Assembly (NCBI GenBank): GCA_027660625.1
Contig: JAQDNC010000009.1
Coordinates: 54,133-99,665 of the forward strand
Source: Coriobacteriaceae bacterium AM100-PB1-1D-6A
GTDB lineage: Bacteria; Actinomycetota; Coriobacteriia; Coriobacteriales; Coriobacteriaceae
Length of the DNA stretch: 45,533 nt
Direction of reading: 5' to 3'
Made by a program: the position numbers and the translations under genes. Under the pieces are notes generated by a model. It was not told where the DNA came from. It saw nothing but the letters and a program-made list of their open reading frames with translations, and made no database searches. Every line of letters starts with the position of its first letter. Within the stretch, counting starts at the first letter, position 1. Below, piece after piece: positions 2,464 to 32,381 of the stretch.

Positions 2464-2465
2464 CC

Positions 2466-3401: not shown

Positions 3402-3415
3402 GAGACGTACCTCCC

Positions 3416-4453
3416 TTAGGCCTTATCCGACGGACCGCCAAGGCGGATGCGCGGGTCGAGGAATGCATAGCTAATGTCGACGAGCAGGTTGATCACCATG
3501 ACGACGACAACGATGAGCGTAACGCCGCCCATAACGATGGGCCAGTCACGCATGCTAATGGCGCGATAGACCTCATAGCCGATACCGGGCCAGTTGAAGA
3601 CCGTCTCAGTCAGGATGGCGCCCGAAAGCATGCCGCCAAAGTCGACACCAATATAGGTAACGACGGGGATGAGTGCATTCTTAAGCGCATGCTTGACGAT
3701 GATCGCACGATTGGAGAGACCCTTGGCCTTTGCCGTACGGATGTAATCCTGGTTCATGACGTCAAGCAGCTGCGAGCGCATAATGCGCGCAGCATAAGCG
3801 GTCGAAACCGAAGCCAGCGTAATGGTCGGAAGCACATAGTGCATCCAATCCTGATACTGAGAGCTGGAACCGCCGGCACCCGAGATCGGCATGGAGATTG
3901 CACCGCCCGTGGCGTCCTTGAGGATGACGCCAAAGAACAGCTGCAGCAACATACCGAGCCAGAAGGCCGGGACCGCAACGAGGATCGACGTGGTGAGCGT
4001 TACCAAAATATCCCAGAAGGAATAACGCTTTACCGCCGAAATGATACCCGCACCGATACCCATAATTGCCTCGAGCACGATGGCGCACGCGGCAAGTTTG
4101 ACCGTATACGGATACTTCTGGGCAAAGATTTCCGTAACCGGCAGCTTGCGCTGATACGAATTGCCCAGATCGCCATGAAGCAGGCCGTTCATGTAATACA
4201 AGTAACGGTCCACGAGCGACGTTTGAACGGGGTCGCCGTTCTCGTCAAGGATCGCGTTGCCGTCATCGTCCGTCTGGACCAGGTGATAGCGAACGCGAAG
4301 CTGAAGCTCCACCTCGGGGGACAGAGCCTTGTCTCCACCGATCAGCTTGATCGGATCTCCCGGCACGATATTCTGGAGGGCGAACAGAATCAGCGTAACG
4401 CCCAAAAACACCGGGATGAACTGAAGCACACGTTTAACGATGTACTTACCCAT
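3416..4453 (-). CDS. oppB: Oligopeptide ABC transporter permease OppB
   Basis: First membrane subunit of the oligopeptide importer. The 345-residue protein starts with a transmembrane helix (about residues 10-30). A long extracytoplasmic loop (about 31-110) follows, containing a DDDGNAILDENGDPVQTS segment of the kind seen in Gram-positive OppB proteins. Five more helices come next, with the EAA loop TAKAKGLSNRAIIVKHALKN. An AGGGGAG ribosome binding site lies just before the ATG. A 156-bp gap separates it from oppA upstream and contains a stem-loop, consistent with the binding protein being made in excess of the permease. Confidence 0.93.
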   Translation of the reverse strand: MGKYIVKRVLQFIPVFLGVTLILFALQNIVPGDPIKLIGGDKALSPEVELQLRVRYHLVQTDDDGNAILDENGDPVQTSLVDRYLYYMNGLLHGDLGNSYQRKLPVTEIFAQKYPYTVKLAACAIVLEAIMGIGAGIISAVKRYSFWDILVTLTTSILVAVPAFWLGMLLQLFFGVILKDATGGAISMPISGAGGSSSQYQDWMHYVLPTITLASVSTAYAARIMRSQLLDVMNQDYIRTAKAKGLSNRAIIVKHALKNALIPVVTYIGVDFGGMLSGAILTETVFNWPGIGYEVYRAISMRDWPIVMGGVTLIVVVVMVINLLVDISYAFLDPRIRLGGPSDKA

Positions 4454-4484
4454 ACCACTCCCCTATCTAGGGATTAACCTAAAT

Positions 4485-4512
4485 GGGATGCCGATCGCCA
4501 GACCGGCATCCC
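4485..4512 (-). terminator. Stem-loop between oppA and oppB, possible partial terminator
   Basis: The 9-bp arms GGGATGCCG (4485-4493) and CGGCATCCC (4504-4512) are perfect complements around a 10-nt loop. On the minus strand they are followed by ATTTAGGTT, a poor U-tract. Such hairpins after the binding-protein gene often allow partial read-through or protect the upstream mRNA. No other promoter is obvious between oppA and oppB. Confidence 0.45.
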
Positions 4513-4609
4513 AAAATTACCATCAGCCAGTTTACCCCAGGTTAGGGAGAACTGTATGTTTCCCATGAGGTCTACGTAAATACTTGACCCTCACGGAAGC
4601 TGCAAACTC

Positions 4610-6286
4610 TTAGGCGAGCTCAGCGGTACCCAGATCGGCGTGCTTCTGCGGATCGACATAGAGGTGCTTAATGCGATCGGAGCCGGCGATGGTGTGCGTG
4701 TAGAACATAATCGGGATGACCGGGCAGTCGGCAGCGACCATTGCGTCGGCCTCCTGCATCTTAGCGACGCGCTCCTCGTCGTCAACAATAGTACGAGCCT
4801 CGTCGACCTTGGCGTCGAACTCGGGGTTGTTGTAACCGGAGCGGTTGTCGCCACCGAGGGAGTCGGAGTGGAACAGCGGATACAGGAAGTTGTCCATGAT
4901 CGGGTAGTCGGCAATCCAACCCAGACGACCGAACTGATAGTTAAAGTTCTGATACTGCTCGAGCAGGGCAGACCACTCAGGGGTATCGGAGACAGCGGTA
5001 ACGCCAACCTTGGCGAGGTCACCGATGATGGACTCCATGATCTCCTTGTGACCGCCGTCCTGGTTGTAGGACAGGGTCACGCTAATGCCACGATCCCCGT
5101 TAGCGCCAGCGGGAGCAACCTTGTCGAGGTACTCGTTAGCCTTGTCGACATCGTAGGCGCAGAACTCCCATGCGCCCTCCTTGTAGCCATCGATGCCCGG
5201 AGGAACAATGCCGTCGGCAGGAGTACGGGTACCCTTGAAGATGGTCTTGCAGATGGCCTCACGGTTGATGGCCAGGGAGATACCCCTGCGCAGGTCGGCG
5301 TTGCTGAACGGCTCGGCCGTGGTGTTGCAGGTCAGATAGTACGTGGAAGGCTCGGCGCCGAGCAGCATGCGCTCGCCGTCACCCATGGTGTAGCCGTCCT
5401 TGGACACGCCGCGATCCTTCTTGGCGGCGTCGATCTGAGCGACGGGAACGTCGCAGACATCGAGGTTACCGGCCTGGAACTCCTTGTAGGCGGTCTCCAT
5501 GTCCTTGATGACCTGGAAGTGGATGCCATCGATCTTGGCCTTGTCGCCATAGTAATCGTCGAACTTCTTGACGTTGATCTCCTGGCCATCCTCCCACTTG
5601 CCGTCCATCATGAACGGGCCGTTACCGACCGGGGCGAGGTAGAAGCTCTTGACATCGGACTCGGCGCACTCGGGAACCGGGGCCAGAGCCGGGTGAGAGG
5701 CGACGAAGGGGAAGTCGGCGTAAGCGGAAGCCAGCTTGACGACGAGGGTCTCATCGTCGGGGCAGGTAACACCGCTGAGCTCGGTAGCGTTACCGGCAAG
5801 CAGATCGTCATAGCCCTCGACCATGGAAAGGTGATAGGAGACCTCGGAAGGGCCGTACTCGGTAGCGACAGCCGACTTGGTGTTGACCAGACGCTCCCAA
5901 CCGAGCTTGAAGGACTTGGAGGTAACGTCGTCACCGTTGTGGAACTTGGCCTTCTTGATCTTGAAGGTGAACTCGGTGGCGTCGTCGTTGGCCTCGAAGG
6001 ACTCGCAAGCCAGCGGAACGATCTCGCCCTTCTCGGCGTCATAAGAGGTCAGAGCATCAAAGAGCTGGTACTCGACCTGAGTGCCCTGGTCCTCCTGGAC
6101 ATTGTAGGGGTCGATGCAGACCGGGTTGTTGATGTAGAAGTTCAGCTTCGAACCGGACTCAGAACCGGAAGCGTCGCCGCCCTTCTTGCCGCATGCGGCA
6201 AGAAAAGCCATGGAGCTCGCAGCAAGGGTACCGCCGACAAAGGCGCGACGACCCATAACGGGCTGGTGGAACATAGAATCAGCCAT
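4610..6286 (-). CDS. oppA: Oligopeptide-binding lipoprotein OppA (family 5 extracellular solute-binding protein)
   Basis: Captures peptides outside the cell and delivers them to OppBC. The chosen ATG gives 558 residues. It is preceded by AAGGAGG with a 5-nt gap, so I prefer it to a longer frame starting 48 nt upstream. The N-terminus has a twin-arginine motif (GRRAF, Arg13-Arg14), a hydrophobic stretch and a lipobox LAAC with Cys32, so a Tat-exported lipoprotein is likely. The mature part has the family 5 core, with segments such as VEGYDDLLAG and LRRGISLAINREA typical of peptide-binding proteins. It is the first gene of the opp unit; secG, with its own terminator, lies upstream. Confidence 0.92.
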   Translation of the reverse strand: MADSMFHQPVMGRRAFVGGTLAASSMAFLAACGKKGGDASGSESGSKLNFYINNPVCIDPYNVQEDQGTQVEYQLFDALTSYDAEKGEIVPLACESFEANDDATEFTFKIKKAKFHNGDDVTSKSFKLGWERLVNTKSAVATEYGPSEVSYHLSMVEGYDDLLAGNATELSGVTCPDDETLVVKLASAYADFPFVASHPALAPVPECAESDVKSFYLAPVGNGPFMMDGKWEDGQEINVKKFDDYYGDKAKIDGIHFQVIKDMETAYKEFQAGNLDVCDVPVAQIDAAKKDRGVSKDGYTMGDGERMLLGAEPSTYYLTCNTTAEPFSNADLRRGISLAINREAICKTIFKGTRTPADGIVPPGIDGYKEGAWEFCAYDVDKANEYLDKVAPAGANGDRGISVTLSYNQDGGHKEIMESIIGDLAKVGVTAVSDTPEWSALLEQYQNFNYQFGRLGWIADYPIMDNFLYPLFHSDSLGGDNRSGYNNPEFDAKVDEARTIVDDEERVAKMQEADAMVAADCPVIPIMFYTHTIAGSDRIKHLYVDPQKHADLGTAELA

Positions 6287-6525
6287 GCCATCCTCCTTAT
6301 GAGATAGGACAAAGAAATGTTCAGTCGGACACATGTCGAGACAATCCGATCCGAACCATCAAAACGCCGCCCGTTGCTATGGCTGGTTATGCACAACGAA
6401 CCAACGTTTCTCAATACAGTAGCGCATTTTATGCACGATTTGGGGCTAATTCCGGTCAACGGTCGAGAATTTCTTTAGTTGGGCGAAGTATGTGGGGATA
6501 TTTTGGCTCTGTTACAAATATGTAA

Positions 6526-13818: not shown

Positions 13819-14505
13819 TTACGCCTCAAGCGCAGCCTTGAACCAACTTGTAATACTCGTGGGGTGCGTGATAGCGGTGCCGACGACAACGGCCCACGCG
13901 CCGGCGTCGATTGCAGCGCGAGCCTCCTCGGGCGTATGCACGCGACCCTCGCAAATGATGGGAAGGCCGGGAAATTCCTCGGTCGCCTGACGCAGGAGCG
14001 GCAGGTCGGGGCCATCGGCCATGGTGCAGTCGATGGCGGCGACACCGTGAGAGAGTGTGGTGGATACCAGGTCGAAGCCCATATCAACCGCACGGCGAAT
14101 GTCCTCGATGGTGGCACAATCCGCCATCAGGAGCACACCCTCCTCGTGCAGCGGGCGGAAGGTATCCTCGACCGACTTGCCATCGGGACGCGGACGATCG
14201 GTGGCGTCGATCGCCACGATATCGGCACCCGCAGCAACGCAGGCACGAGCGTGACGCAGCGTCGGCGTGATGTAAACGCCCTCGTGCCCGTCCTTCCACA
14301 GACCGATGACGGGAACCTCACAGCGACCCTTAATGGCGGCAATGTCGGCAAGGCCCTGGCAGCGAATGGCGGCGGCGCCGCCAAGCTCGCAAGCGCGAGA
14401 CATTTGAGCCATGGTCTCGGGCGTACGAAGCGGCTCGCCCATATACGCCTGAACGCTCACGACGAGCTTGCCCTTCAGGGACTGGATCAAAGGATCAACG
14501 GTCAT
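13819..14505 (-). CDS. nanE: N-acetylmannosamine-6-phosphate 2-epimerase
   Basis: Converts ManNAc-6-phosphate to GlcNAc-6-phosphate, the third step of sialic acid catabolism. The 228-residue TIM-barrel protein shows the NanE segments AAAIRCQG, GLWKDGHEGVYITP (probable catalytic Lys71), AGADIVAIDAT, STTLSHG and ICEGRVHTPEEA. The ATG at 14505 gives the usual N-terminus and length. A GTG 39 nt upstream is possible but lies inside a long inverted repeat. The ribosome site (AAAGG about 11 nt upstream) is weak. It is the last gene of the nan unit and is followed by a terminator. Confidence 0.92.
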   Translation of the reverse strand: MTVDPLIQSLKGKLVVSVQAYMGEPLRTPETMAQMSRACELGGAAAIRCQGLADIAAIKGRCEVPVIGLWKDGHEGVYITPTLRHARACVAAGADIVAIDATDRPRPDGKSVEDTFRPLHEEGVLLMADCATIEDIRRAVDMGFDLVSTTLSHGVAAIDCTMADGPDLPLLRQATEEFPGLPIICEGRVHTPEEARAAIDAGAWAVVVGTAITHPTSITSWFKAALEA

Positions 14506-14530
14506 GTTCGACTCAACCTTTCTCAAAACA

Positions 14531-14628
14531 GCCTTCTGAGACACCGCACCTTGACGTTCAAACCGTCGCTCGCGTACCGAAGTACGCTTCGCTCCTCTTT
14601 CACGTCAATCTGCGGCACCTCAGAAGGC
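14531..14628 (-). repeat. Long inverted repeat between nanK and nanE
   Basis: A 98-bp structure fills most of the 140-bp gap. The outer arms 14531-14548 and 14611-14628 match at 15 of 18 positions; the three mismatches become G-U pairs when read as minus-strand RNA. TTGACGT/ACGTCAA pairs continue inward, and the tip is GCGTAC-CGAA-GTACGC (14572-14587). On the minus strand it is followed by TGTTTTGAG, a short U-tract. It could be a partial terminator, an RNA-stability element or a small repeat element. It lies just before nanE's ribosome site. Confidence 0.65.
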
Positions 14629-14645: not shown

Positions 14646-15611
14646 TTACTTCAACGATGCAAGAAGGTGTTCGGCGGCACCGATGAGCGGCGCGTCGCCC
14701 TCCAGAGAGCCGATGAGAATCGGCGTGTCCTGAAGCGGGTCGAGCGCCTGGCTGGCATAGCCCTCGTGCACCGAGTCCTTCCACGTCTGTGAACGCCAAT
14801 CGGGACCTTGGTGAATCACGCCGCCCGAAAGCACGATGACCTCAGGGTCCAGGATGTTAGCGAGCGAGCCCAGGCTGGCGCCCAGCGCAAAGCCGGCGTC
14901 ATGAATGACCTCGGTCGCCTTTGCGTCGCCTGCGCGGCACAGGTCGTTCACGTCACGGCCGACCGAAGGACGGCTGGGGTCGACGCGGCCAAAACGCTCA
15001 TCGTACATGCGCCCGATTGATGTTCCGGAAGCAACCGACTCCAGATGGCCGGAACGCCCGCAGGCGCAGGGAATGCCGGCGGCAGCCGAGCACTCGATGT
15101 GGCCCATATGGCCGGCAGCACCATGGAAGCCCTGCATCACGCGGCCGTTCTCGACATATGCGCCGCCGATGCCCGTACCGATGCCCAAACACAAGACGGA
15201 GAACTTGCCCTTGCCGACGCCCCAGTGGGCCTCGCCCAGAGCATGAGCCTGCACGTCGCCTACAACGGCAACGGGAAGGCCGAGGTCCTCGCGCAGACGC
15301 GGCCCCAACTGAACGCCGGACCAGCCGGGCATAATCTCATTGGCATACGCGATGGCGCCCGTCTTGGGGTCGACGACACCGGCAGCGCCGATGCCAACTC
15401 CGAGGACCTCGACATCGGGATTTGCCTCAAGAGCTGCCTTGATAGACGCCTCGATGCGCTGGAAGACCGCTTCGCCACCCTCCTGGGCCTCGGTGGGAAC
15501 CTCAGCCTCAAAAACGGGATGGGGCACACCGCCGTCAGCCGGGTACTCCATGATGGCAGTCGCGATCTTAGTTCCGCCGATATCGACAGAGCAGACGTAC
15601 TTGTTCTCCAT
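14646..15611 (-). CDS. nanK: ROK-family sugar kinase, probable N-acetylmannosamine kinase
   Basis: Probably phosphorylates ManNAc to ManNAc-6-phosphate, the second step of sialic acid catabolism. The 321-residue protein has the ATP-binding DIGGTK (10-15), GIGTGIGGAYVENG (143-156) and AGHMGHIE (166-173). AGHxGH in place of the common AGExGH is, as far as I recall, also found in E. coli NanK. The zinc motif reads CACGRSGHLE (182-191): two cysteines remain, and His189 stands where the third cysteine usually is. The chosen ATG has AAGGAG 6 nt upstream. Substrate is inferred from flanking nanA and nanE; glucokinase-type ROK proteins look similar. Confidence 0.85.
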   Translation of the reverse strand: MENKYVCSVDIGGTKIATAIMEYPADGGVPHPVFEAEVPTEAQEGGEAVFQRIEASIKAALEANPDVEVLGVGIGAAGVVDPKTGAIAYANEIMPGWSGVQLGPRLREDLGLPVAVVGDVQAHALGEAHWGVGKGKFSVLCLGIGTGIGGAYVENGRVMQGFHGAAGHMGHIECSAAAGIPCACGRSGHLESVASGTSIGRMYDERFGRVDPSRPSVGRDVNDLCRAGDAKATEVIHDAGFALGASLGSLANILDPEVIVLSGGVIHQGPDWRSQTWKDSVHEGYASQALDPLQDTPILIGSLEGDAPLIGAAEHLLASLK

Positions 15612-15676
15612 GTCGTTCTCCTTCGGAGACAAAACAACTACAGGAAATGCGCCGTCAGGCTAGCCGTCACAGCGCG

Positions 15677-15785
15677 GTAAAGGTTTTCCAGGTGCCCGAG
15701 ATCGCCGAGAAACCGTGCGGCCATTGGCCTAATGGGTCATGGCCGCACGGTTGAACGGCGAGGTCGGGTGCCTGGGAAAGCTTTA
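15677..15785 (-). repeat. Long imperfect inverted repeat between nanA and nanK
   Basis: Arms of about 45 bp (15678-15723 and 15739-15784) pair at roughly three quarters of positions. The innermost 15 bp, AACCGTGCGGCCATT-like, pair almost perfectly around a short loop. The outer end of one arm reaches the nanA stop codon. There is no convincing U-tract, so it is less like a terminator than like a processing or stability hairpin. Its architecture parallels the nanK-nanE repeat although the sequences differ. Confidence 0.6.
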
Positions 15786-16703
15786 AAGGAGACCGTTGTC
15801 CTGGAGGACCTTGCGAATCGCCTCGACGTTCTCACCGGTCATGGCCTTCACCGGGCGCGGCATGGTCGGGCTGTCGAAGATGCCCATGAGGTTCATAGCG
15901 GTCTTGAAGGCGCCGACGCCACCGGCATAGCCCTGGACGCCCGAGGTGACATCCCAGATGTGCGAAATCTCATTGAGGCGATCCTGTTCGGCCTTGACGG
16001 TAGCCCAGTCACCAGCCTGAGCGGCCTTCCACTGACGAACGTAGCCCTCGGGCTCAACGTTGGCGAGGCCCGGAACGGAACCGTCGGCGCCACCGAGATA
16101 GGCACCGTCGACGACGACCTCATGGCCGGTAAGGATGCTCATCGGATGGCCGTTCTTCTCGTTCTCCTGAATGAGGTAGCGGAACGAGATGTCATCGCCC
16201 GAGGAATCCTTGACGCCAGCCAGGACGCCCTCGGCGCCGAGCTTAGCAAGGAGCTTCCAGGGGAGCTTGGTGTGGACGCACACGGGGATGTCGTAGGCGA
16301 AGATGGGCAGGTCGAGTTCCTCGTGAAGGATGCGGAAGTGCTCCTCGACCTCGGTCATGCCCTGCAGGGCATAGAACGGGCAGGTGGCGACGAGCGCATC
16401 GGCGCCCAGCTCCTGAGCGACCTTGCCGTGCTCGATCATGCGCTCGGTCTCGGTGTCGATGATGCCGACCAGAACGGGAACGCGGTGGTCGACGATACGG
16501 ACGGCCTCTGCGACAATCTGGCGACGGCGCTCGTCGGTGGAGAAGACGACCTCGCCCGAGGAGCCCAGGAAGAACAGGCCATCGACGCCGGCATCGATCA
16601 TGCGGTTGATGCTGCGCTCAAAGGAGGCAACGTCGAGCTGGTGGTCTTCGGTATCGGGAACAACGACGGGAGGGATAACGCCGGTGAATTTCTGAGTTGC
16701 CAC
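15783..16703 (-). CDS. nanA: Dihydrodipicolinate synthase/N-acetylneuraminate lyase family aldolase, probable sialic acid lyase
   Basis: Probably cleaves N-acetylneuraminate to ManNAc and pyruvate. I start it at a GTG preceded by AAGGAG with a 6-nt gap, giving 306 residues. In that numbering the Schiff-base lysine is Lys165 (GVKDSSGD) and the tyrosine is Tyr137 (FAYDIP), the same numbers as E. coli NanA. The carboxylate-binding loop is GSSGE (47-51) rather than the GSTGE of classical NanA. The VKDSSGD environment resembles a broad group of related pyruvate aldolases. The assignment therefore rests on the family plus adjacent nanK and nanE; another 2-keto acid aldolase activity is possible. 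Confidence 0.82.
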   Translation of the reverse strand: MATQKFTGVIPPVVVPDTEDHQLDVASFERSINRMIDAGVDGLFFLGSSGEVVFSTDERRRQIVAEAVRIVDHRVPVLVGIIDTETERMIEHGKVAQELGADALVATCPFYALQGMTEVEEHFRILHEELDLPIFAYDIPVCVHTKLPWKLLAKLGAEGVLAGVKDSSGDDISFRYLIQENEKNGHPMSILTGHEVVVDGAYLGGADGSVPGLANVEPEGYVRQWKAAQAGDWATVKAEQDRLNEISHIWDVTSGVQGYAGGVGAFKTAMNLMGIFDSPTMPRPVKAMTGENVEAIRKVLQDNGLL

Positions 16704-16771
16704 AAGAATCTCCTTAGTTGTCTGGCGGGCAGCCCTATGCCGCCCACTCTTGTTGGCGGTGTCCAGGCCGT

Positions 16772-17623
16772 CTAGGCCAAAGAACACGAATAGAACGTTT
16801 GGTTAAAGAAGTCGACGACTTCGTTTTCGAACGCATTGATGCGCTCGTGAGCGTATTTGGCATAGATGATATGCCTCCGGTCACACTCAAGACCGTTGAA
16901 TACGGCAAACTGGCCCTTGGGATCACTCACGGTATCCATGAGCGATGTGCCCATGAGCACCGAGCCACGAACCCGAGGCGACAGCGTCTCGAGACCGCTG
17001 GGAAGCGGATTGGCAAGCGCCGTGCAGGCAAGGCCCCGCTCGTCCAGAGCAGAAACCGCCAGCGCGACACCGCCGCCAAGGCCCTCGCCCCATGCAAAGA
17101 TGCGGTCGGGATCCATGCCATCAAGGTTGCGCGCAACCTTCGCCAACGCGCAGCCCCAACGGACACGCTCGACAAAAGCAGGCGAGGTAATCCCCTGCTG
17201 CAGATCGCTGGATCCAATAGTCTCATCGTCCAGCGCAAGCACGGCATATCCCATGGCGGCAAACCGCGTCATGTGATGCCATCCCCGCACGGGTCGGTCG
17301 ATGTCATGGAACATCAGACACAGCGGAACAAGCTCGGATCTTCGGGCGCAACCAGAGGGCTCAATCAAACGGCCGTGCACGACATACCCGCCGAGCTCAA
17401 AGGAAACCTCGGAGTAGCGCGCGCACGGATTGGCGAAATCAATCGCCGTAACGGTCAGCCCGCAAACCTCAAGGTCCGAAGCGGCTGTCTCCAACTCGGA
17501 AACATCCGCAGAAGCATCGCCGCGCCAATCCCGGAAATCAGAGAGCCTTGACGAAACCGTCCCAGCAATTCCCGCAAGCTCGGGGACAATCAGCTCATCG
17601 ATATTGCTCTCGCACTTAGACAT
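16772..17623 (-). CDS. CE7-like acetylesterase homologue lacking the catalytic serine
   Basis: A 283-residue alpha/beta-hydrolase related to the neighbouring CE7-type acetylesterase. The nucleophile elbow reads WGEGLGGG, with Gly181 (codon GGC) where the partner has Ser183 in GASQGGG; AGC to GGC is a single-base change. Asp230 and His259 align with the partner's Asp274 and His303, keeping the 29-residue Asp-to-His spacing. The segment between elbow and Asp is about 42 residues shorter, so part of the core is missing. It is therefore unlikely to be an ordinary serine esterase and may be a pseudoenzyme or partner subunit. The ATG overlaps the upstream esterase stop by 8 nt (ATGTCTAA). nanA begins about 70 nt downstream. 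Confidence 0.75.
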   Translation of the reverse strand: MSKCESNIDELIVPELAGIAGTVSSRLSDFRDWRGDASADVSELETAASDLEVCGLTVTAIDFANPCARYSEVSFELGGYVVHGRLIEPSGCARRSELVPLCLMFHDIDRPVRGWHHMTRFAAMGYAVLALDDETIGSSDLQQGITSPAFVERVRWGCALAKVARNLDGMDPDRIFAWGEGLGGGVALAVSALDERGLACTALANPLPSGLETLSPRVRGSVLMGTSLMDTVSDPKGQFAVFNGLECDRRHIIYAKYAHERINAFENEVVDFFNQTFYSCSLA

Positions 17624-18593
17624 GAGCCTCCCCTCCCTTGCAGAAAAATGGAATGATCAGATCGTCAAAATCCTGAATCTCCTCGTGACCGAAGCCTTCA
17701 AAGAACTCATGACGCTTTTCACAGGTCAGGTTGTTGTAGACTGCAAACTGCGTCGCCGGAGGACAGACGATATCGGCTGTGCCCGTGCCAAACAGCACGG
17801 GGCATTTGACTATGGGGGCAAAGTTCTTGGAATCGAAGTACGCCAGCTTGGCATAGGCCTCGTCAATACGAGTCGAGTCCTCGTCAAACCAGCGAGACCA
17901 ATAGCGCAGACCCTCGTAGGCAATGTCGTCGGCATCCAAATCCCAGACCAGGCGGAAATCCGACAGGAAGGGATAGAGGATGGCGGCGCGATTGATAAGC
18001 TCGCTGTTAAGCGCACAGGTCGCAATGCCCAAACCGCCGCCCTGCGATGCGCCGTTCACAAATACACGGGCAAGATCGATGCCCTCGAGCTCACGAACAA
18101 TACGGCAAAGAATGCGGATATCTTGGTGCAAGCGGACATAGTAGAGGTTGGCCGGGTCGCCGTCGATACCGGCGACGATATGGCCCGCGACCGTCGTGCC
18201 CTCAAATCCACCAATGTCCTCGGAGGGACCTCCTTGGCCGGGGCAGTCGAGGGCGATGAGTGCCATGCCCATGCCCGCAAACGACGCCTGCTCAAACCAG
18301 CTGCGGCTTGCACCCGGATACCCATGGAACTGAAGTACCAATGGCACGGGCTCGTCCGAGACAGGTTTAAGGTACTTGGCGTGCAGGCGAGCGCCGCACA
18401 TGCCGGTATACCAGAGATCGAAAAGCTGGCAGGTCACGGCATCGGTGACCGATGCCGCCTCGATCGCATAGTCAAGCCCGACGGCGTCAGCCTCGGCCAT
18501 GCGATCCTTCCAAAAGAGATCGAAATCTGATGGACGGGACATAGCGCCTCGATATTCACCAAATTGATGTTGTAGCTCCTGAGCACTTGGCAT
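17616..18593 (-). CDS. CE7-family acetylesterase (acetylxylan esterase / cephalosporin C deacetylase type)
   Basis: CE7 enzymes remove acetyl groups from sugars and related small molecules. The 325-residue product has the expected triad: Ser183 in GASQGGG, Asp274 in TADIVCPP and His303 in GFGHEE. The spacing matches characterised CE7 members. The oxyanion-region FHGYPGASRSW is also present. No signal peptide is seen, so it acts in the cytosol on imported or intracellular substrate. Its place between a sialate-type transporter and nanA suggests it removes O-acetyl groups from imported sialic acids; this is inference, as the family was named for xylan and cephalosporin. The ATG at 18593 has only a distant AAAGG; a TTG 15 nt upstream is an alternative start. 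Confidence 0.85.
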   Translation of the reverse strand: MPSAQELQHQFGEYRGAMSRPSDFDLFWKDRMAEADAVGLDYAIEAASVTDAVTCQLFDLWYTGMCGARLHAKYLKPVSDEPVPLVLQFHGYPGASRSWFEQASFAGMGMALIALDCPGQGGPSEDIGGFEGTTVAGHIVAGIDGDPANLYYVRLHQDIRILCRIVRELEGIDLARVFVNGASQGGGLGIATCALNSELINRAAILYPFLSDFRLVWDLDADDIAYEGLRYWSRWFDEDSTRIDEAYAKLAYFDSKNFAPIVKCPVLFGTGTADIVCPPATQFAVYNNLTCEKRHEFFEGFGHEEIQDFDDLIIPFFCKGGEAHV

Positions 18594-18629
18594 GGCTCGT
18601 GAACCCAACCTTTCGAAATCGCAACGGAG

Positions 18630-18657
18630 GTGCGCCCGGCAAGGGAACCGGGCGCAC
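18630..18657 (-). terminator. Stem-loop between transporter ATPase and esterase genes
   Basis: The perfect 10-bp arms GTGCGCCCGG (18630-18639) and CCGGGCGCAC (18648-18657) enclose an 8-nt loop. There is no U-tract on the minus strand, so termination is doubtful. A hairpin at the junction between transporter and catabolic genes could set different mRNA levels for the two halves. Confidence 0.4.
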
Positions 18658-18673
18658 GGGAGGGAAAGCGAAG

Positions 18674-19501
18674 TTACTCGCCGAGCTTGGGATGCAGCAG
18701 CGACGGCGCAGCGCCGAGCAGCATCTTAGTGTAGGGGTCTCGAGGATGCTGGAAAACCTGCTTGGCCTCGCCCTGCTCGACGATCTTGCCGCCATTCATG
18801 ACGATGATGTCGTCGGAAATATAGCGGACCGTCTGGATGTCATGGCTGATGAACACCATAGCCAGGCCGAGTTCCTTCTTAAGGTCGGTCAGCAGGTTGA
18901 GAATCTGCGCGCGGACCGAAACGTCCAGAGCCGAGGTGGGCTCGTCGGCGATGATGGCATCGGGGTTCAGCGACAGGGCACGGGCAATTGCGACGCGCTG
19001 GCGCTGGCCGCCCGAAAGCTGGCCGGGAAGAACCTCGGCGGCGGAGGAGGGCAGACCGGTGAGCTCCAAGAGCTCCTTGACGCGCTTCTCCTGCTCGGCC
19101 TCGGTACCCAGGTTGTGGACGCGCATGGGGTCGAGCAGTTGCTCGCGAACGACCATGCGAGGGTTGAGCGCCGTGGCCGGGTTCTGGAACACGACCGAGA
19201 TGACGCGACCCATGTGGCGACGGTCCTCGGCGGTACGCTTGGTGACGTCCTTGCCCTTAAAGTAGACCTTGCCGCTCGTGGGGGCCTGCAGGCCGCACAT
19301 GACGTTAGCCGTGGTGGACTTTCCGCAACCGGACTCGCCGACGATGCCGATGGTCTGTCCGGGCATGAGCTTAATCGTTACACCCTGGACGGCGTGAACC
19401 AGGTTGGGGTGCAGAATCGAGCCGGTACGGGTCCTAAAGGTGACGTGGACGTCATCAAGGAAGATGATCGGCTCGACGCCGTTGACTGCGGTCTCGCTCA
19501 T
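18674..19501 (-). CDS. Opp/Dpp-type ABC transporter ATP-binding protein (OppF/DppF-like), probably for sialic acid
   Basis: Second ATPase of the importer in the nan unit. The 275-residue protein has Walker A GESGCGKS (55-62), LSGGQRQR (162-169) and Walker B AIIADEP (182-188). It ends soon after HPRDPYTKMLLGAAPS, so it lacks the long C-terminal cysteine-containing tail present in OppF and OppD of the first cluster. It follows the permease-ATPase fusion directly, with no spacing. A four-gene Opp-type arrangement beside nanA/nanK/nanE resembles the SatABCD class of sialic acid importers. Substrate is inferred from context only. Confidence 0.85.
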   Translation of the reverse strand: MSETAVNGVEPIIFLDDVHVTFRTRTGSILHPNLVHAVQGVTIKLMPGQTIGIVGESGCGKSTTANVMCGLQAPTSGKVYFKGKDVTKRTAEDRRHMGRVISVVFQNPATALNPRMVVREQLLDPMRVHNLGTEAEQEKRVKELLELTGLPSSAAEVLPGQLSGGQRQRVAIARALSLNPDAIIADEPTSALDVSVRAQILNLLTDLKKELGLAMVFISHDIQTVRYISDDIIVMNGGKIVEQGEAKQVFQHPRDPYTKMLLGAAPSLLHPKLGE

Positions 19502-21517
19502 CTACATCACCTCCGCGTGAGGGGTCAAACCATTTGCCTTGAGCACCTCGTCGGGGAGCTCGGAATAGAAGTGCTCGGTGCCGGGCACGCGCTTGAAGAC
19601 CGGACGGGTGTCCAGGCCAATGCGCGGATGGCTCGAGCGGGGCGCGAAGCGATCGCCCTTGGGGAAATCGCGCGGGCTCGGAACGGCGCCGGGCACCTGG
19701 TGCAGGCGGCCCGAACCGCTCTCGATGGACAGGACGGAACCCAGAAGGCCGCGGGTGTACTCGTGAATCGGGTTGGTGAGCAGCTCCTTGGTGGGCGCCT
19801 GCTCAATAACCTGGCCGGCGTACATAACCGTGATGTTGTGGGCGACCTCGGCGACCAGCGCCAGGTCGTGCGAAACGAAGATCATGGCAAAGCCGAGCTT
19901 GGCCTGAAGGTCGTTGAGCAGCTTGATGACCTGCTTCTGGACCGTAACGTCCAGAGCGGTCGTGGGCTCGTCGCAGATAACCAGCTTGGGGTCGCGGGTA
20001 AGGGCCATAGCGATCAGAACGCGCTGACGCTGACCACCGGAAAGCTCGTGCGGATAGCTCTCGAGCGTACGCTTGGGGTCGAGGCCCACGAGCTCCAGGA
20101 GTTCCTCGGCGCTACGGGTGCCGCCGCGCTTGGTGAGCTGCTTCATCTGGGCAGAGATGAGCATGGAGGGGTTGAGCGAGGACAGGGCGTCCTGATAGAC
20201 CATGGCGATATCGGTACCGCGCAGGCCGAACCACTCCTTCTTGCTCATCTTGAGCAGGTCGCGGCCCTCCCAGAGAACCTCGCCGGAAAGATGCTCGTCA
20301 TCGTCGGTCAGGCCCATGATGGCCAGCGTGGTGATGGACTTACCGCAGCCGGACTCGCCTACCAGGCCCATGGTCTGGCCGGGACGGACGTCAAAGTTAA
20401 CGTGGTCGACGACGTTGATATCACCGTGGTGCTCAAACTGGATGCAGAAATCGCGGACCGAAAGGATCGGCTCAACGGACTCATCGGGCACATGGCGGTC
20501 GTTACGCTTGAGCTCGACATCGCGCAGTGCGCCAAGACGGGCGGACAGGGACTGAGCCTGCTCCTTGTAGGCACGAACGGGGTCGGAAACCAGCAGGTCG
20601 GCCTCGCGGCGCTTGGAGGAATCGGTCGGATCCAGGGCGGCGGAGGGAGCAGCGGCCATGGCGTCGGTAATGCCCTCGGAGAGGATGTTGAGCGCCAGGC
20701 AGGTGATCATGATGGCCAGGCCCGGGAACAGTGCCTGCCACCAACGGCCAGCGAGCACGCCACCGCGTGCGTCGGCGAGAATGTTGCCCCAGGTAGCGGT
20801 GGGCTCCTGGATGCCGGCGCCGATGAAGGTCAGCGAGGCCTCGAAGATAATGGCGTCGGCGACCAGGGTAACGGTGAAGACCATAATCGGAGCGATGCAG
20901 TTACGCAGAACATGCTTGATCAGAATCCACGGAGCCTTGGCGCCGGACACGATGACCGCGCGGACATAGTCCTCACCGTACTCGGACACGATGTTGGCGC
21001 GCACGATACGGGCGATCTGCGGGGTGTACATAAAGCCGATCGCAAAGATGATCGACGGCACGGAATTGCCCAGGATGGAAACGAAAACGGCTGCGAGGGC
21101 GATACCCGGGATGGACATGATGATGTCCAGGATACGCATGATCGCCTCAGAGATAGACTTGCGCGAAACCGCTGCAAGAGCGCCGACAACGGAACCACAG
21201 ACCAAAGCCATGGCGGTAGCACCAAAGCCGATAATCAGCGAGTAACGTCCGCCGTAGAGCATGCGCGACAGAATGTCGCGACCCTTATCGTCGGTACCGA
21301 AGATAAATCCGTTGCCGGGAGCCTGGCGAGCCGTAAAGATCTCGACCGGGCTATAGGGGGCAAGAAGGGGCGCCAAAATCGCAGTCAGGGCGACCAGCAC
21401 CAGCACGACGGCGGCAATCTTAGAAGACAGCGTCATCTTCTTCCAGCCACCGAGCTTGAGCCCCTTGGAGGCAGCCTTCTCGAGCTGCTCGGTTTGCTTC
21501 TCTCGAATCTTTACCAT
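19502..21517 (-). CDS. Permease-ATPase fusion of an Opp/Dpp-type ABC importer (OppC-OppD fusion), probably for sialic acid
   Basis: A 671-residue protein joining two usually separate subunits. Residues 30-290 are an OppC-like permease: a first helix at about 33-52, the FGTDDKGRDILSRML region, an EAA loop near 187-206 and further helices to about 285. A polar linker (about 290-345) follows. Residues 350-600 are an ATPase with Walker A GESGCGKS (387-394), LSGGQRQR (492-499) and Walker B LVICDEP (512-518). The C-terminal region corresponding to the usual cysteine cluster reads FAPRSSHPR, so the cysteines are lost. There is no stop or frameshift at the junction. It starts 3 nt after the upstream permease stop. 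Confidence 0.9.
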   Translation of the reverse strand: MVKIREKQTEQLEKAASKGLKLGGWKKMTLSSKIAAVVLVLVALTAILAPLLAPYSPVEIFTARQAPGNGFIFGTDDKGRDILSRMLYGGRYSLIIGFGATAMALVCGSVVGALAAVSRKSISEAIMRILDIIMSIPGIALAAVFVSILGNSVPSIIFAIGFMYTPQIARIVRANIVSEYGEDYVRAVIVSGAKAPWILIKHVLRNCIAPIMVFTVTLVADAIIFEASLTFIGAGIQEPTATWGNILADARGGVLAGRWWQALFPGLAIMITCLALNILSEGITDAMAAAPSAALDPTDSSKRREADLLVSDPVRAYKEQAQSLSARLGALRDVELKRNDRHVPDESVEPILSVRDFCIQFEHHGDINVVDHVNFDVRPGQTMGLVGESGCGKSITTLAIMGLTDDDEHLSGEVLWEGRDLLKMSKKEWFGLRGTDIAMVYQDALSSLNPSMLISAQMKQLTKRGGTRSAEELLELVGLDPKRTLESYPHELSGGQRQRVLIAMALTRDPKLVICDEPTTALDVTVQKQVIKLLNDLQAKLGFAMIFVSHDLALVAEVAHNITVMYAGQVIEQAPTKELLTNPIHEYTRGLLGSVLSIESGSGRLHQVPGAVPSPRDFPKGDRFAPRSSHPRIGLDTRPVFKRVPGTEHFYSELPDEVLKANGLTPHAEVM

Positions 21518-21520
21518 AAT

Positions 21521-22477
21521 CTACACCGTCCTGATGCGCGGGTTGATGAGCAGGTAGAGCATGTCAACCACGATGTTGATGATGATGAAGGCAAGAGCAA
21601 CGACGATAACGACGCCCTGAACCAGGTTCGCCTCGTTGCCCTGAACGCCCTGCAGAATCGCAGTGCCCATGCCGGGGAGGTTGAAGATAACCTCGATGAC
21701 GACGGCGCCGCCCATGAGGTAGCCGATCTTAAGACCGAGGGTGGTGACCGGGGTGATCAGCGCATTGCGAAGAACGTTGATGCCGACGACGACCTTCTCG
21801 GGAACGCCGGCGCCACGAGCCATACGGACATAGTCCTTGTCGAGCTCCTCGACCATGGCGGTACGCACGATACGAGTCATCTGGCCCGTCAGCGGAAATG
21901 CCAAGGCGATAGCGGGCATGATCATACGTCCCAGATAGCCAACCGGATTCGTGGTGAAGTGAGGCAGAGCACCCGATGCCGGGAGCACCTTAAGGTAGGA
22001 AGAGAACAGCAGGATCAACAGAACGGCAAGCCAGAACGACGGGGTTGCCAAGCCGGCGATGGAAAAGACGCGGATCACTTGGTCCGGCCATTTGTCGCGA
22101 TACAGTGCCGCGATGACGCCGAGCAAAAACGAAACGACCGCACCGATGGCAAGACCGATGAAGGTCAGCTGCATCGTGACGGGCAGGGCCGTGGAGATGC
22201 GCTTGGCAACGGAGTTGCGGGCAGCGCCGTAGGTACCCATGTCGCCATGAATCAAATCGCCCATATAGCGCACGTAGCGCACAGGCCAGGGGTCGTCCAG
22301 ACCATACTTCTCATGGTACTCGGCAACCGCCTCGGGCGAGGCACCGTCACCCAACGCCGTGTAGGCGGGGTCGGTCTTGGAGAACGACATAAGGAAGAAC
22401 ACCAGGACGGTGACGCCCAATGCCATGATCGGCAGCGCCACAAGACGCCTTCCAATCAAACGTAGCAAGTTGTTCAC
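21521..22477 (-). CDS. Opp/Dpp-type ABC transporter permease (OppB/DppB-like), probably for sialic acid
   Basis: Membrane subunit that pairs with the permease half of the downstream fusion. I start it at GTG 22477, preceded by AAAGGGGAG with a short gap, giving 318 residues. It has the DppB layout: a first helix (about 10-30), an extracytoplasmic region with SPEAVAEYHEKYGLDDPWPVRY, then five helices, with the EAA-type loop MARGAGVPEKVVVGINVLRN and a C-terminal LLINPRIR. A hairpin-rich 157-bp gap separates it from the binding protein upstream. Confidence 0.9.
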   Translation of the reverse strand: MNNLLRLIGRRLVALPIMALGVTVLVFFLMSFSKTDPAYTALGDGASPEAVAEYHEKYGLDDPWPVRYVRYMGDLIHGDMGTYGAARNSVAKRISTALPVTMQLTFIGLAIGAVVSFLLGVIAALYRDKWPDQVIRVFSIAGLATPSFWLAVLLILLFSSYLKVLPASGALPHFTTNPVGYLGRMIMPAIALAFPLTGQMTRIVRTAMVEELDKDYVRMARGAGVPEKVVVGINVLRNALITPVTTLGLKIGYLMGGAVVIEVIFNLPGMGTAILQGVQGNEANLVQGVVIVVALAFIIINIVVDMLYLLINPRIRTV

Positions 22478-22634
22478 GTTCTCTCCCCTTTCTTTTGTCG
22501 GTAGGACCAACTGGTATATGAGTACGGATACTCATTACAAGACCCGAGCGACATCGTTGCCGCCCGGGTCTTTGTTTCAACTATGAGGATACGGTCCCAA
22601 CGGCCGACATCCTGCATACAGACTCAAGCGAGTC

Positions 22635-24248
22635 TTACGCCTTGACGGTCGCAACGCCCCTGAAGGACATGCTCGTCGTGCCGATGCCCTTGAAGCCGTC
22701 GAGAGCCTCGCCGTTGGGCGCGGTGGACGGATCGTCCCAGGAAGCGGAGACGGTCTTGACGTGGACAACGGGGTACAGAACGGCGTTGTCGGCGATGATG
22801 TCGAAGCACTCGTTCCACTTCTTCTGCTGCTCGTCGCCCTCGGCGGCAAGAGCCTCGTCCATGAGACCGTGAAGCTTCTGCCACTCAGCGGACTCCTTCC
22901 ACGGGCAACGGGTCTGCATCCAGACGTTGTCGCCATACCACCAGTTGAGCAGCAGGTCGGGGTCAGCGCCGAAGCAGGAAGGATCGCCAGGGGCAAGGAG
23001 GATATCGTAGGCCTCGCCGCCGTCGATGGCAGCGTAGGTGGCCGGCGAGGTATCGGTCTGGATGGTCACCTCAAAGCCGAGAGCGTCGAGGTCGTTCTTG
23101 ACCTGGGCGGCCATGCCCTTGATCTGCTCGTTGTCGGTGGTGCGCAGGGTGATGGCACCCGGGGTGATGCCGGACTCCTCGATGAGCTTCTTAGCCTTCT
23201 TGGCGTCGGTCTTGTACACCGTGGAAGCCTCATGATAATTGGTGAAGCTCTTGGGCAGGTAGCAGCTGGCAGCGGTGGCAAGGCCGGCAAAGGTGTTGCT
23301 GACCATCTTCTCGGTGTCGAGCGCATACATGACAGCCTGACGGACCTTGACGTTGTTCCAAGGCTCCTTGGCGACGTTGAACATGATGAAGCGGGTGCCG
23401 AAACCCTGAACGTTATCGATCTTGCAGCCGGCGCTCTCGAGCTGGTCGACGGCGTCAGCGGTAACGAGCTCCATAACGAGCGTGGAGCCCTCCTGCTGAG
23501 CGGTAACGCGAGCGGTGGGGTCGGTCAGGATGCTGTACTGGATCTTCTTATCCTCGGCAGCATACTCACCGTTGTACTCGGGGTTGGGAACCAGGGTGAT
23601 CTCGGTATCGGAGATAGAGTCGTACATCCAGGGGCCGGAGCCGATCGGCTGCTTGGCGCGATCCTCCTCGGTCTGGGTGGCCGGGGTAACGCGGATGATG
23701 GCAAGACGATCCTTGAGCAGAGAGAAGTTGGGGACCTTGGTCTTGACCGTCACGGTGCTGGCGTCCTTAGCCTCGATGGACTCGAAGGGCTGGAAGAACG
23801 GAGCATAGGTAGCGGAAGCGGCGCAAGCGGTGTAGGAGGCAACGACATCGTCAGCGGTGACCTCGGTGCCATCGGAGAACTTGGCGCCCTTGCGGATGGT
23901 AACCTCGAAAGTGGTGTCGTCCACAGACTTGGGGTCGTCGGTGGCGAGCTCGTTGAAGGTGCTGTAGTCGTGGTAATCGATGCCGTAGAGGCCCTCGACG
24001 ACGTGCCAGTTAGCACCCAGGCCCACAGCGGAGCCGGTGCTGGCGGGGTCGAAGCTGGACGGAGCGTAAGCGGAACCAGCGGTGATCACGCCGCCGCCAC
24101 GGTTGGCGGAATCGGTGGAACCGGAAGCGGAACCCTCGTCGCTAGAGCTGCCACCGCAGCCGGTGAGACCAAGGCCGGCGACAGCAGCGACGCTGCCGGT
24201 GAGGCCGAGGAACGAACGCCTGGACATACCCTTGTTGATGATGGCCAT
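22635..24248 (-). CDS. Family 5 solute-binding lipoprotein of the nan-unit importer, probable sialic acid binding protein
   Basis: Extracellular binding protein of the second Opp-type importer. The ATG at 24248 has AGGAG 6 nt upstream and gives 537 residues. The N-terminus shows a Tat motif (MSRRSFLGL, Arg10-Arg11), a hydrophobic stretch and lipobox LTGC with Cys31, then a Ser/Gly-rich linker. The mature region has family 5 features, such as SDGTEVTADDVVASY and VRQAVMYALD. Related proteins bind peptides, nickel or sialic acid (SatA type). Sialic acid is preferred here because the unit runs into nanA-nanK-nanE, but the sequence alone cannot prove the ligand. It is the promoter-proximal gene of the unit. 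Confidence 0.85.
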   Translation of the reverse strand: MAIINKGMSRRSFLGLTGSVAAVAGLGLTGCGGSSSDEGSASGSTDSANRGGGVITAGSAYAPSSFDPASTGSAVGLGANWHVVEGLYGIDYHDYSTFNELATDDPKSVDDTTFEVTIRKGAKFSDGTEVTADDVVASYTACAASATYAPFFQPFESIEAKDASTVTVKTKVPNFSLLKDRLAIIRVTPATQTEEDRAKQPIGSGPWMYDSISDTEITLVPNPEYNGEYAAEDKKIQYSILTDPTARVTAQQEGSTLVMELVTADAVDQLESAGCKIDNVQGFGTRFIMFNVAKEPWNNVKVRQAVMYALDTEKMVSNTFAGLATAASCYLPKSFTNYHEASTVYKTDAKKAKKLIEESGITPGAITLRTTDNEQIKGMAAQVKNDLDALGFEVTIQTDTSPATYAAIDGGEAYDILLAPGDPSCFGADPDLLLNWWYGDNVWMQTRCPWKESAEWQKLHGLMDEALAAEGDEQQKKWNECFDIIADNAVLYPVVHVKTVSASWDDPSTAPNGEALDGFKGIGTTSMSFRGVATVKA

Positions 24249-24317
24249 GTCTTCTCCTATCAATAGAGAATCTTACCCGGGAGCACCTAGACTTGCCCCC
24301 GCGCAACTTGCGGACGA

Positions 24318-29504: not shown

Positions 29505-32381
29505 TTAGGCATCGAGTTGCGCTTGACGCTCCTTATCGCGTTTGAGCAACGGCGCCAAGAACTTGCCGGTATAGCTCTGCGGGCATGCCGCAGCCTGCTC
29601 TGGCGTACCCGAGACCACGACAGTTCCGCCACCGTTGCCACCCTCGGGACCCATATCGATCAGACGGTCGGCGACCTTGATGACATCGAGGTTGTGCTCG
29701 ATCACCAACACCGTATTGCCCGCATCGACTAGACGCTGCAACACATCAAGTAACTGGCGAACGTCCTCAAAATGAAGACCGGTCGTAGGCTCGTCCAAAA
29801 TATAGAACGTCTTACCCGTCTGACGGCGATGAAGCTCCTTGGCGAGCTTTACGCGCTGCGCCTCACCACCCGAGAGCGTCGTGGCGGGCTGGCCCAAGCT
29901 CACATAACCTAGGCCGACGTCATACAGGGTTTGAAGCTTTCGCTTGATCTGCGGAATATTCCCAAAGAAAGCCAGTGCCTCGGCCACGCTCATGTCAAGT
30001 ACGTCCGAGATAGTCTTGCCACGATAGGTAACCTCGAGCGTCTCGCGGTTATAGCGCTTGCCGCCACAAGCCTCGCAGGGAACATAAATATCGGGAAGAA
30101 AGTGCATCTCAATCTTGATCTGGCCGTCGCCCTTGCACGCCTCGCAGCGTCCGCCGCTCACATTAAAGGAGAAGCGTCCCGGCGAGTAGCCACGCGCCTT
30201 CGACTCCGGCGTGCTCGCAAACAGCGCGCGCAGATCATCCCACAGGCCAATATAGGTCGCAGGGTTCGAACGCGGCGTGCGACCGATCGGCGACTGGTCA
30301 ATGTCGATCACCTTATCGATGCACTCGATGCCCTCAATCTTCTTGTACGGACCCACGGGACGCGTCGAACGGTGGATGGCATTCGTAAGCGCGGGCGCAA
30401 TCGTATCGGTGACCAGGGAGCTCTTGCCCGATCCCGAAACACCGGTAACGACTGTGAGCGTACCGAACTCAATCTTGGCGGTAACGTTTTTGAGGTTGTT
30501 GGCGCGGGCGCCCGTGATCTTAAGGCAGCCGCGGCCGGGCTTGCGGCGCTCGTCTGGCACGCGGATCATCCGCTTGCCGGTCAAATAAGCACCCGTCATG
30601 GAATCGGGGCACGCCATGATATCGGCAGGCGTTCCCGCGGCGACCACGTGCCCGCCGTTGACGCCCGCGCCTGGCCCCATATCGATCACATAGTCGGCAG
30701 CGCGAATCGTGTCCTCATCGTGTTCAACGACGATAACGGTGTTGCCGATATCGCGCAGGCGCTCGAGTGTCTTAATCAGCCGCTCGTTGTCGCGCTGGTG
30801 AAGACCAATCGAAGGCTCGTCCAGAATATAGAGAACGCCCATGAGGCCCGCACCGATCTGCGTAGCCAGGCGAATGCGCTGCGCCTCACCGCCGGAAAGC
30901 GTCGCCGAAGCACGATCGAGCGTCAGATAATCAAGGCCGACATCAACCAGAAAACGCAAGCGTTCCAAGATTTCCTTGACGATACGACCGCCGATGAATT
31001 GTTGACGCTCGGTGAGCTCAAGGTCCTCAAAAAACTCGAGCGACTCGCGGCACGACAGGCAACAAACCTCATAAATGGACTTGCCGCCCACGGTGACGGC
31101 GAGCATCTCGGGGCGCAGGCGAGCACCATGGCAGCTCGAACACGGCTCCTCGCGAATGTACTTCTCCAGGCGCGCCTTAGTGTTCTCGTTGGTCGTCTCG
31201 GTATAGCGCTCGTACAGGATATTGCGCACGCCCGAAAACTTGGTGTCCCACTGGCTGCGACGACCGTCGAGCTTTTGATAGTCCACCGAAATCTTCTTGT
31301 CGCCCATGCCATCCAAAAATGCACGGCGCACTCGCGGAGGTAGGTCTTCCCACGGTGTATCCGCGCTCACCTTAAAGTGCTTACAGACCGCGGCGAAGAT
31401 CTGGGGGTAGTAGTTCGAATTGCCGAACAGGCTTCCAAAGACCCCATCGGCAATCGACTTCGACGGGTCCTCAATCAGCGCCTCGGCATCGACCGTTTTC
31501 TTAAAGCCCAGACCATCGCACTCGGGACACGCACCATAGGGCGCGTTGAACGAAAAGTCGCGGGGTTGTAGGTCGTCGATGGAGTGCCCGTGCTCCGGGC
31601 ACGCCAGAGCCAACGAATACTCCAGCAGCTCGCCCTCGGTTCCCTCGGGAGCATCGCGATCGGGCAGCATGTACACGTTCACATTGCCGTGTGCCAAGGC
31701 AGTCGCCTGTTCAACCGACTCGGCGATACGGCCCAGAGAGTTTTCCCGAATCACGATGCGGTCGACTACGACCTCGATATCGTGCTTGAACTTTTTGTCC
31801 AGATCGATGGGGTCGTCGAGCGAGCGTACTTCGCCGTCGACACGCACGCGGCTAAAGCCCTCAGCCCGAAGATCCTCGAACAATTTTGCGTACTCGCCTT
31901 TGCGCCCGCGCACCACCGGTGCCAGCACAAACGCACGACGACCCTCTCCCGCTGCCAGGACCTTATCGGCGACCTGGTCGGTGGTCTGGCGTTCGATAAC
32001 GCGACCGCACTCGGGGCAGTGTGGCGTGCCCACGCGTGCAAAAAGCAAGCGAAGGTAGTCATAAATCTCAGTTACAGTACCCACCGTCGAGCGCGGATTC
32101 TTGGACGTCGTCTTCTGATCGATCGAGACGGCCGGCGAAAGGCCGTCGATCGAGTCTAGATCGGGCTTGTCCATCTGGCCTAAAAACTGGCGCGCATAAC
32201 TCGACAGGCTTTCCACGTAGCGACGCTGACCCTCGGCATAGATCGTGTCAAACGCCAGCGAGCTCTTGCCCGAGCCCGAAAGACCGGTAATGACCACGAG
32301 CTCGTCGCGCGGGATGGAAACATCGATATTGCGCAGGTTGTGTTCGCGCGCACCACGGATAACGATAGAAGAATCAGACAT
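29505..32381 (-). CDS. uvrA: Excinuclease ABC subunit UvrA
   Basis: Damage-recognition ATPase of nucleotide excision repair; it loads UvrB onto lesions. The 958-residue length is typical. It has two ABC cassettes: an N-terminal Walker [11 protein letters not shown] (about 33-42) and a second [11 protein letters not shown] near 650. Two LSGGEAQR signatures are present, along with zinc-binding CxxC pairs ([15 protein letters not shown]...[14 protein letters not shown]...[10 protein letters not shown]). The ATG has AGGAGG and AAGGAG upstream. A LexA-box-like sequence lies 62 nt upstream. The ltaS-like gene is transcribed divergently. Confidence 0.96.

Follow-up and report, generated by a model that had tools for sequence, protein, structure and literature searches.

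A CE7 paralogue with glycine at the nucleophile position, paired with an active CE7 esterase in a sialic acid operon of Coriobacteriales, is a candidate non-catalytic partner subunit

Analysis of a 45,533-nucleotide stretch of DNA from Coriobacteriaceae bacterium AM100-PB1-1D-6A (the window) revealed a catalytic CE7 esterase, P0002, followed in the same operon by a CE7 paralogue without nucleophile, P0001, that we propose to be its non-catalytic partner subunit. We assign a probability of roughly 60% to the reading that P0001 is a CE7 paralogue of ancient origin, dedicated to a non-catalytic role, and joins P0002 at about 1:1 in a heteromeric sialate esterase. The copy without nucleophile, termed silent below, is most likely a working partner subunit rather than a broken gene. 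An earlier, sequence-only reading of this DNA had suggested a pseudoenzyme with a structural or regulatory role; the fixed glycine, the predicted elbow fold, dN/dS, the linked partner, natural fusions and the operon make this the best reading of P0001. The different chemistry that it had entertained as an alternative is less likely.

P0002 (325 aa; 17616..18593, minus strand) matched the Pfam AXE1 profile with 278 bits (cut-off 21) over profile positions 10-318 of 321, and it matched the CE7 entry 3fcy of the PDB (E 1e-70). This profile score and a full Ser183-Asp274-His303 triad, reported in the sequence-only reading and borne out by the letters of the protein, both place P0002 in the CE7 (PF05448) fold family; it is a probable cytoplasmic sialate O-acetylesterase. 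P0001 (283 aa; 16772..17623, minus strand) also belongs to this fold family (profile over the cut-off, CE7 fold) and is without the nucleophilic serine in GxSxG that marks an active CE7 enzyme. Against the CE7 pattern G-x-S-Q-G-G, P0002 reads GASQGG at Ser183 and P0001 reads GEGLGG, with Gly181 at the nucleophile position as had been claimed. Likewise, Asp230 and His259 are retained in P0001 with the Asp-to-His spacing of 29 found in both proteins, and the described gap of about 42 residues between elbow and Asp is visible in the pairwise alignment with P0002 (27% identity, E 2e-24). The start of the silent gene lies over the stop of the CE7 gene in an 8-nt overlap, ATGTCTAA (17616..17623, minus strand), that is identical in 19/19 named Collinsella loci.

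The predicted fold of P0001 (mean pLDDT 94.2) has a complete core in which Gly181 falls exactly at the elbow, with strand 170-180 before it and helix 182-193 after it. An alternative serine at the elbow, which would have told against a pseudoenzyme, is ruled out by this predicted fold. The sequence-only reading was too narrow in allowing P0001 the loss of only its nucleophile and one segment: the GQGGxS beta-interface motif is also gone, the Gly of the HGY loop is Asp, and silent and active copies within one genome share 19-32% identity (34 pairs). Compared with CE7 acetyl xylan esterases and cephalosporin C deacetylases (PF05448; PDB 3fcy, 6fkx, 1ods, 3m81), P0001 has Gly for the nucleophile, is without GQGGxS and most of the three-helix insertion, and carries fixed residues of its own.

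Alignment of homologues showed the glycine to be fixed. Among the best 120 of 280 matches, all 120 had Gly at position 181, as does P0001 itself (121/121, with Ser in none), and a comparison of diverse members found Gly in 44/44 silent rows, Ser in 34/34 active rows and Ser at the nucleophile column of all 6 single-copy outgroup CE7s. Relatives in named genomes were Collinsella in 19/19 cases, many of them C. aerofaciens strains, which identifies the window as Collinsella DNA; the nearest genome compared has 68% of sampled words in common with it. Codon 181 in the 19 Collinsella loci was GGC or GGT, always Gly. Together, these counts rule out a strain mutation or sequencing error at Gly181. 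General loss of Ser from CE7 proteins of the phylum is also ruled out, as CE7-like loci outside the class had Ser at the aligned column in 24/24 cases (24 of 30 matching genomes, one locus per genome). A larger, redundant set of 228 silent-type domains, compiled without the minus-strand rows among L001-L021 and with 53 rows that end before the C-terminal columns through a split match, had Gly in 227; the lone Ser was that of L091 (from genome G139), a distant hydrolase rather than a member. Position 107 in this set was Asp in 222/228 (otherwise 2 Glu, 1 Asn, 1 Gly in L091 and 2 gaps) and position 180 held Glu 223 times, Asp 3 times and Val once, with Ser in L091.

Among 19 oriented, named Collinsella loci, the silent gene had a median dN/dS of 0.174 and its active partner one of 0.049 (167 and 163 of 171 pairs used). 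These ratios indicate that the silent frame is under purifying selection and that P0001 is a maintained protein; conserved fold, fixed loss of an essential residue and purifying selection together mark P0001 as a probable pseudoenzyme. In a maximum-likelihood tree of 84 rows, 44/44 silent rows fell on one side of a branch with support of 100/98, with 34/34 active rows on a second branch and the outgroup on a third (100/99 for each of these two), a topology indicating that the silent CE7 clade is ancient and of single origin. Active copies were more alike than silent ones in 560/561 genome comparisons (median identity 0.60 versus 0.34), and silent copies have diverged faster than their active partners.

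P0134, a full-length silent CE7 of 321 aa that branches at the base of the group, may represent an early step in the history of the silent clade. It has GEGQG, Asp107, Arg120 and Glu180 together with the insertion and the beta-interface motif, and Leu rather than Arg at 261. Because P0134 retains both contact elements yet has Gly, the nucleophile was probably lost before the protein was shortened. The tree analysis marked P0134 as atypical in sequence composition, the protein scores as active-type in the 228-domain comparison although it has Gly, and its plain identity is a median of 0.36 to active copies and 0.30 to silent ones, a slight nearness to the active side that is as expected of a slowly changed early member.

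The two genes were inseparable across the genomes sampled. Counted at E<=1e-30, a threshold that excludes more distant CE7 genes, the active gene was present in 52 of 396 class genomes, and the silent gene was present in the same 52, which span 12 of 153 genera; its frame was open in all of them (20 + 32). Three extra, weak silent-gene matches (G198, G376, G139) were accompanied by no active gene within this threshold. The two genes adjoin in each of the pair-bearing loci examined, and in seven genomes they are fused or read as one polypeptide, six as single frames of 486-588 codons (the 486-codon frame runs up to the edge of its contig) and the seventh interrupted by contig ends. Proteins of at least 480 aa numbered 41, and in 40 of them the N-terminal half bears the serine motif and the C-terminal half G[ED]G; two chains of this length, P0170 and P0180, share the serine motif GASQGAG. 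The odd one of the 41, P0166 (522 aa), consists of a CE7 half followed by a PF02153 part, a chimera that could have arisen in assembly.

Fused silent rows of Coriobacteriales formed one clade (100/98). The fusion P0123, from a metagenome-assembled genome whose Oscillospiraceae label could be a binning error, groups elsewhere, and joining thus occurred at least twice, unless splitting is common. AlphaFold2 modeling of a natural fusion, P0154 (517 aa), gave a pTM of 0.92 and pLDDT of 92.3, as against a pTM of about 0.62, reckoned from 320 of the 517 residues, expected if the halves were unoriented; what holds for a fused chain may not hold for pairs encoded separately. The silent half of this model starts at its first core strand, and the model of P0001 has helices before the core. 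Collectively, the gene content and arrangement of these genomes support a partnership of silent and active CE7 well.

Silent copies carry a residue signature of their own. Asp107, Arg120, Gly181, Asn263 and Glu266 were each found in 44/44 silent rows, Glu or Asp at 180 also in 44/44, and Arg261 in 43/44; active rows at the corresponding columns had Gly107, Ser/Ala/Thr120, Ser181, mostly Gln263 and mostly Asp266. The set is not wholly special to silent copies, as one of the six outgroup rows has Asn263 and one has Glu266. Asp107 sits in the HGY loop and Glu180 directly precedes the lost nucleophile. The Tyr of the HGY loop helps form the oxyanion hole. In L083, L085 and L088, all of one genus, and in P0126, Asp230 and His259 are jointly replaced by Gly and Tyr with the other signature residues kept, a pattern indicating that selection protects the new residue set and not the old Asp/His dyad. 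Residual dyad chemistry as the conserved function is weakened by this lineage.

Inter-subunit features of the CE7 hexamer include an N-terminal extension, a three-helix insertion and a beta-interface loop (PMC6209228), and we take GQGGxS as the mark of the last. The insertion stretch measures 15 residues in P0001 versus 57 in P0002, and many relatives in another Coriobacteriales family have the full 57 (one row, L063, is absent from this insertion-length alignment and present in the tree and residue comparison). GQGGxS occurred in 1/44 silent rows, that of P0134, and in 33/34 active and 5/6 outgroup rows. P0001, with its insertion shortened and the beta-interface motif absent, therefore does not retain these two CE7 inter-subunit elements.

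The pair lies within a minus-strand operon transcribed in the order SatA-like protein, three ABC genes, P0002, P0001, NanA-like lyase, ROK kinase and NanE. The binding protein (22635..24263; PF00496) aligned over residues 56-538 with PDB 5z99 (E 5e-92); 5z99 and two sister PDB entries matched at E ~1e-92, and the next chain at 2e-28. In PDB 5Z99, the SatA protein of Haemophilus ducreyi is seen in complex with sialic acids (PMC10017367). In the operon, the binding-protein gene is followed by an ABC permease (21521..22510; PF00528, 133 bits), a permease-ATPase fusion (19502..21517; PF00528 and PF00005) and an ABC transporter ATPase (18674..19501; PF00005, 125 bits), the first two constant neighbours and the third constant as far as contigs reach. 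A plus-strand open frame of 1292 codons (18587-22465), antisense to the ABC genes, is probably a by-product of codon bias. Next downstream of the pair, and overlapping the frame of the silent gene, is a NanA-like lyase of the DHDPS family (15783..16787; PF00701), which matched PDB 5c54, a DHDPS/N-acetylneuraminate lyase, at E 2e-71 and fell below the NCBIfam nanA cut-offs. The constant ROK kinase (14646..15632; PF00480), NanK-like by position, and NanE, N-acetylmannosamine-6-phosphate 2-epimerase (13819..14544; NF002231, 264 bits, cut-off 189), complete the series. The order transporter, CE7, silent copy, nanA, ROK, nanE was constant in compared loci as far as contig ends allow.

P0002 thus stands where a sialate O-acetylesterase would be sought, among a SatA-like binding protein, NanE, a NanA-like lyase and a ROK kinase. 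Because the operon holds a SatA-like protein and NanE, sialic acid, probably O-acetylated, is the best guess at the substrate, and because the lyase scores below the nanA cut-offs, this guess rests mainly on SatA and NanE. Pneumococcal Axe, located near nanA, is another CE7 member. Axe (SPD_1506) is an acetyl-xylan esterase without signal peptide that releases acetate from highly acetylated bovine submaxillary mucin and needs Ser181 for activity on acetylated xylan; the available part of that report describes no measurable part played by Axe in mucin use, in colonisation or in virulence and, in a difference from P0002, mentions no silent partner (PMC5352144). A figure legend elsewhere draws Axe in streptococcal nan clusters, and a similarity table in the same article lists C. 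aerofaciens with 34% over 314 residues to the queried acetyl xylan esterase (PMC3658417). A single CE7 gene was present in the shown stretch of the nan-like cluster in an S. agalactiae plasmid record (gene tables incomplete) and in Cetobacterium. As other sialic acid users show one CE7 per nan-like cluster, the silent partner looks like a Coriobacteriales elaboration, some of its members being of unplaced origin.

In the favoured mechanism, the SatA-type transporter would import O-acetylated sialic acids and P0002 would strip their O-acetyl groups, presumably in the cytoplasm; the deacetylated sugar would then be cleaved by the NanA-like lyase, phosphorylated by the ROK kinase and epimerised by NanE. 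P0001 would bind P0002 as a silent subunit, replacing or capping CE7 subunit contacts, and may adjust the P0002 active site or access to it, or the shape, stability or specificity of the enzyme. We infer that binding, at about 1:1, extends to species with unfused genes, and predict sialate specificity, a cytoplasmic location, inactivity of P0001 and an effect of P0001 on the enzyme. Co-occurrence in 52/52 genomes, adjacency, fusions and the fusion-model pTM of 0.92 support the subunit reading, as do single origin (100/98) and constraint (dN/dS 0.174, codon 181 always Gly); as a counter-point, operon neighbours can stay together without binding. The sialate substrate is supported by the SatA-like binding protein, NanE, CE7 genes in other nan-like clusters and the pneumococcal Axe data, with the sub-threshold lyase and the missing mucin-use contribution of Axe as counter-points.

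As a further counter-point to the subunit reading, the charges fixed at Asp107, Glu180, Arg120 and Arg261 seem more than a scaffold alone would call for. A rival reading is a new chemistry, in which Asp107, Glu180-Gly181, Asp230, His259 and Arg261 make up a rebuilt site that acts on sialic acid or its O-acetyl form with no covalent nucleophile, converting anomers or moving acetyl groups, for example. In its favour are the complete predicted core and the residues of the silent rows at 107, 120, 181, 263 and 266 (constant in 44/44) and at 180 (Glu or Asp in 44/44); in addition, O-acetyl groups are known to migrate spontaneously to C9 (PMC10017367). We consider new chemistry unlikely: Asp230 and His259 change together to Gly and Tyr in L083, L085 and L088 while other signature residues stay, Asn263 and Glu266 recur in the outgroup, and fusion to an esterase demands no second activity. 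A YhcH/NanQ-family (DUF386) gene, present in 24 of the 30 pair-bearing genomes searched, also speaks against new chemistry and weakens the silent copy as a replacement for the NanQ anomerase. It is improbable that the Gly clade was repurposed, with Asp107, Arg120, Glu180 and Arg261 together making a novel binding site at which O-acetylated sialic acid is processed with no covalent nucleophile; if true, this site might, for example, move acetyl to a position cut by the fused esterase, creating a two-step sialate deacetylase.

The new charged residues could also suit a carboxylate ligand, and reduction of CE7 subunit-contact elements while the core fold stays would fit a sensor whose ligand is sialic acid or its acetyl ester and which signals the load on the pathway to esterase, transporter or regulation, without serving as a structural subunit. 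Such a sensor seems distinctly unlikely, since fusion at a ratio of one polypeptide fits a stable subunit better and a Pfam scan of the silent copy detected no DNA-binding or effector domain. Were the partner instead the downstream NanA-like lyase, with the silent copy docking the esterase or its product to it, this would explain why the silent gene stands in the middle wherever a locus shows it together with CE7 and the nanA-like gene, as well as the overlap of silent and nanA-like frames in the window; however, CE7 is the partner in every fusion seen, fused loci encode the lyase in a frame of its own, and we judge this docking role very improbable. Faster evolution of the silent copy than of its partner (560/561 comparisons; 0.34 versus 0.60) is what a decaying duplicate kept only through operon position would show, but frames open in 52/52 genomes, dN/dS of 0.174, fixed Gly and signature residues and a single ancient origin leave that explanation with almost no probability.

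A non-catalytic partner subunit has precedents of several kinds, and a search of open-access literature listings found no report of a silent CE7 partner. Neuroligins and NDRG proteins are alpha/beta-hydrolase pseudoenzymes that have lost the nucleophile and use the fold for binding. To our knowledge, none of these has been described as paired in an operon with, or fused to, an active CE7 enzyme. Active enzymes with an inactive paralogue as subunit are known in other folds. Receptor phosphatases, with an active D1 and an inactive D2 domain (PMC7320164), likewise join an active domain to an inactive homologue; they differ in fold, host and chemistry, and the CE7 pair exists both as separate genes and as fusions. 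Most CE7 enzymes of solved structure are hexamers built from a single kind of subunit (PMC6209228). A silent CE7 that is always paired with the active copy in the class genomes sampled, and sometimes fused to it, suggests a heteromeric CE7 design tied to host sialic acid use, in bacteria, gut Collinsella and relatives, that are common in the gut. The full-length silent P0134, shortened copies and fused copies offer a natural series for the path from paralogue to subunit.

Elsewhere in the window, a second block of same-strand frames (343-6334, minus strand) ends in an SBP_bac_5 binding protein (4610-6334), and a sulfatase-domain protein (PF00884, 717 aa; 32575-34728, plus strand) is encoded beside uvrA (29505-32381).
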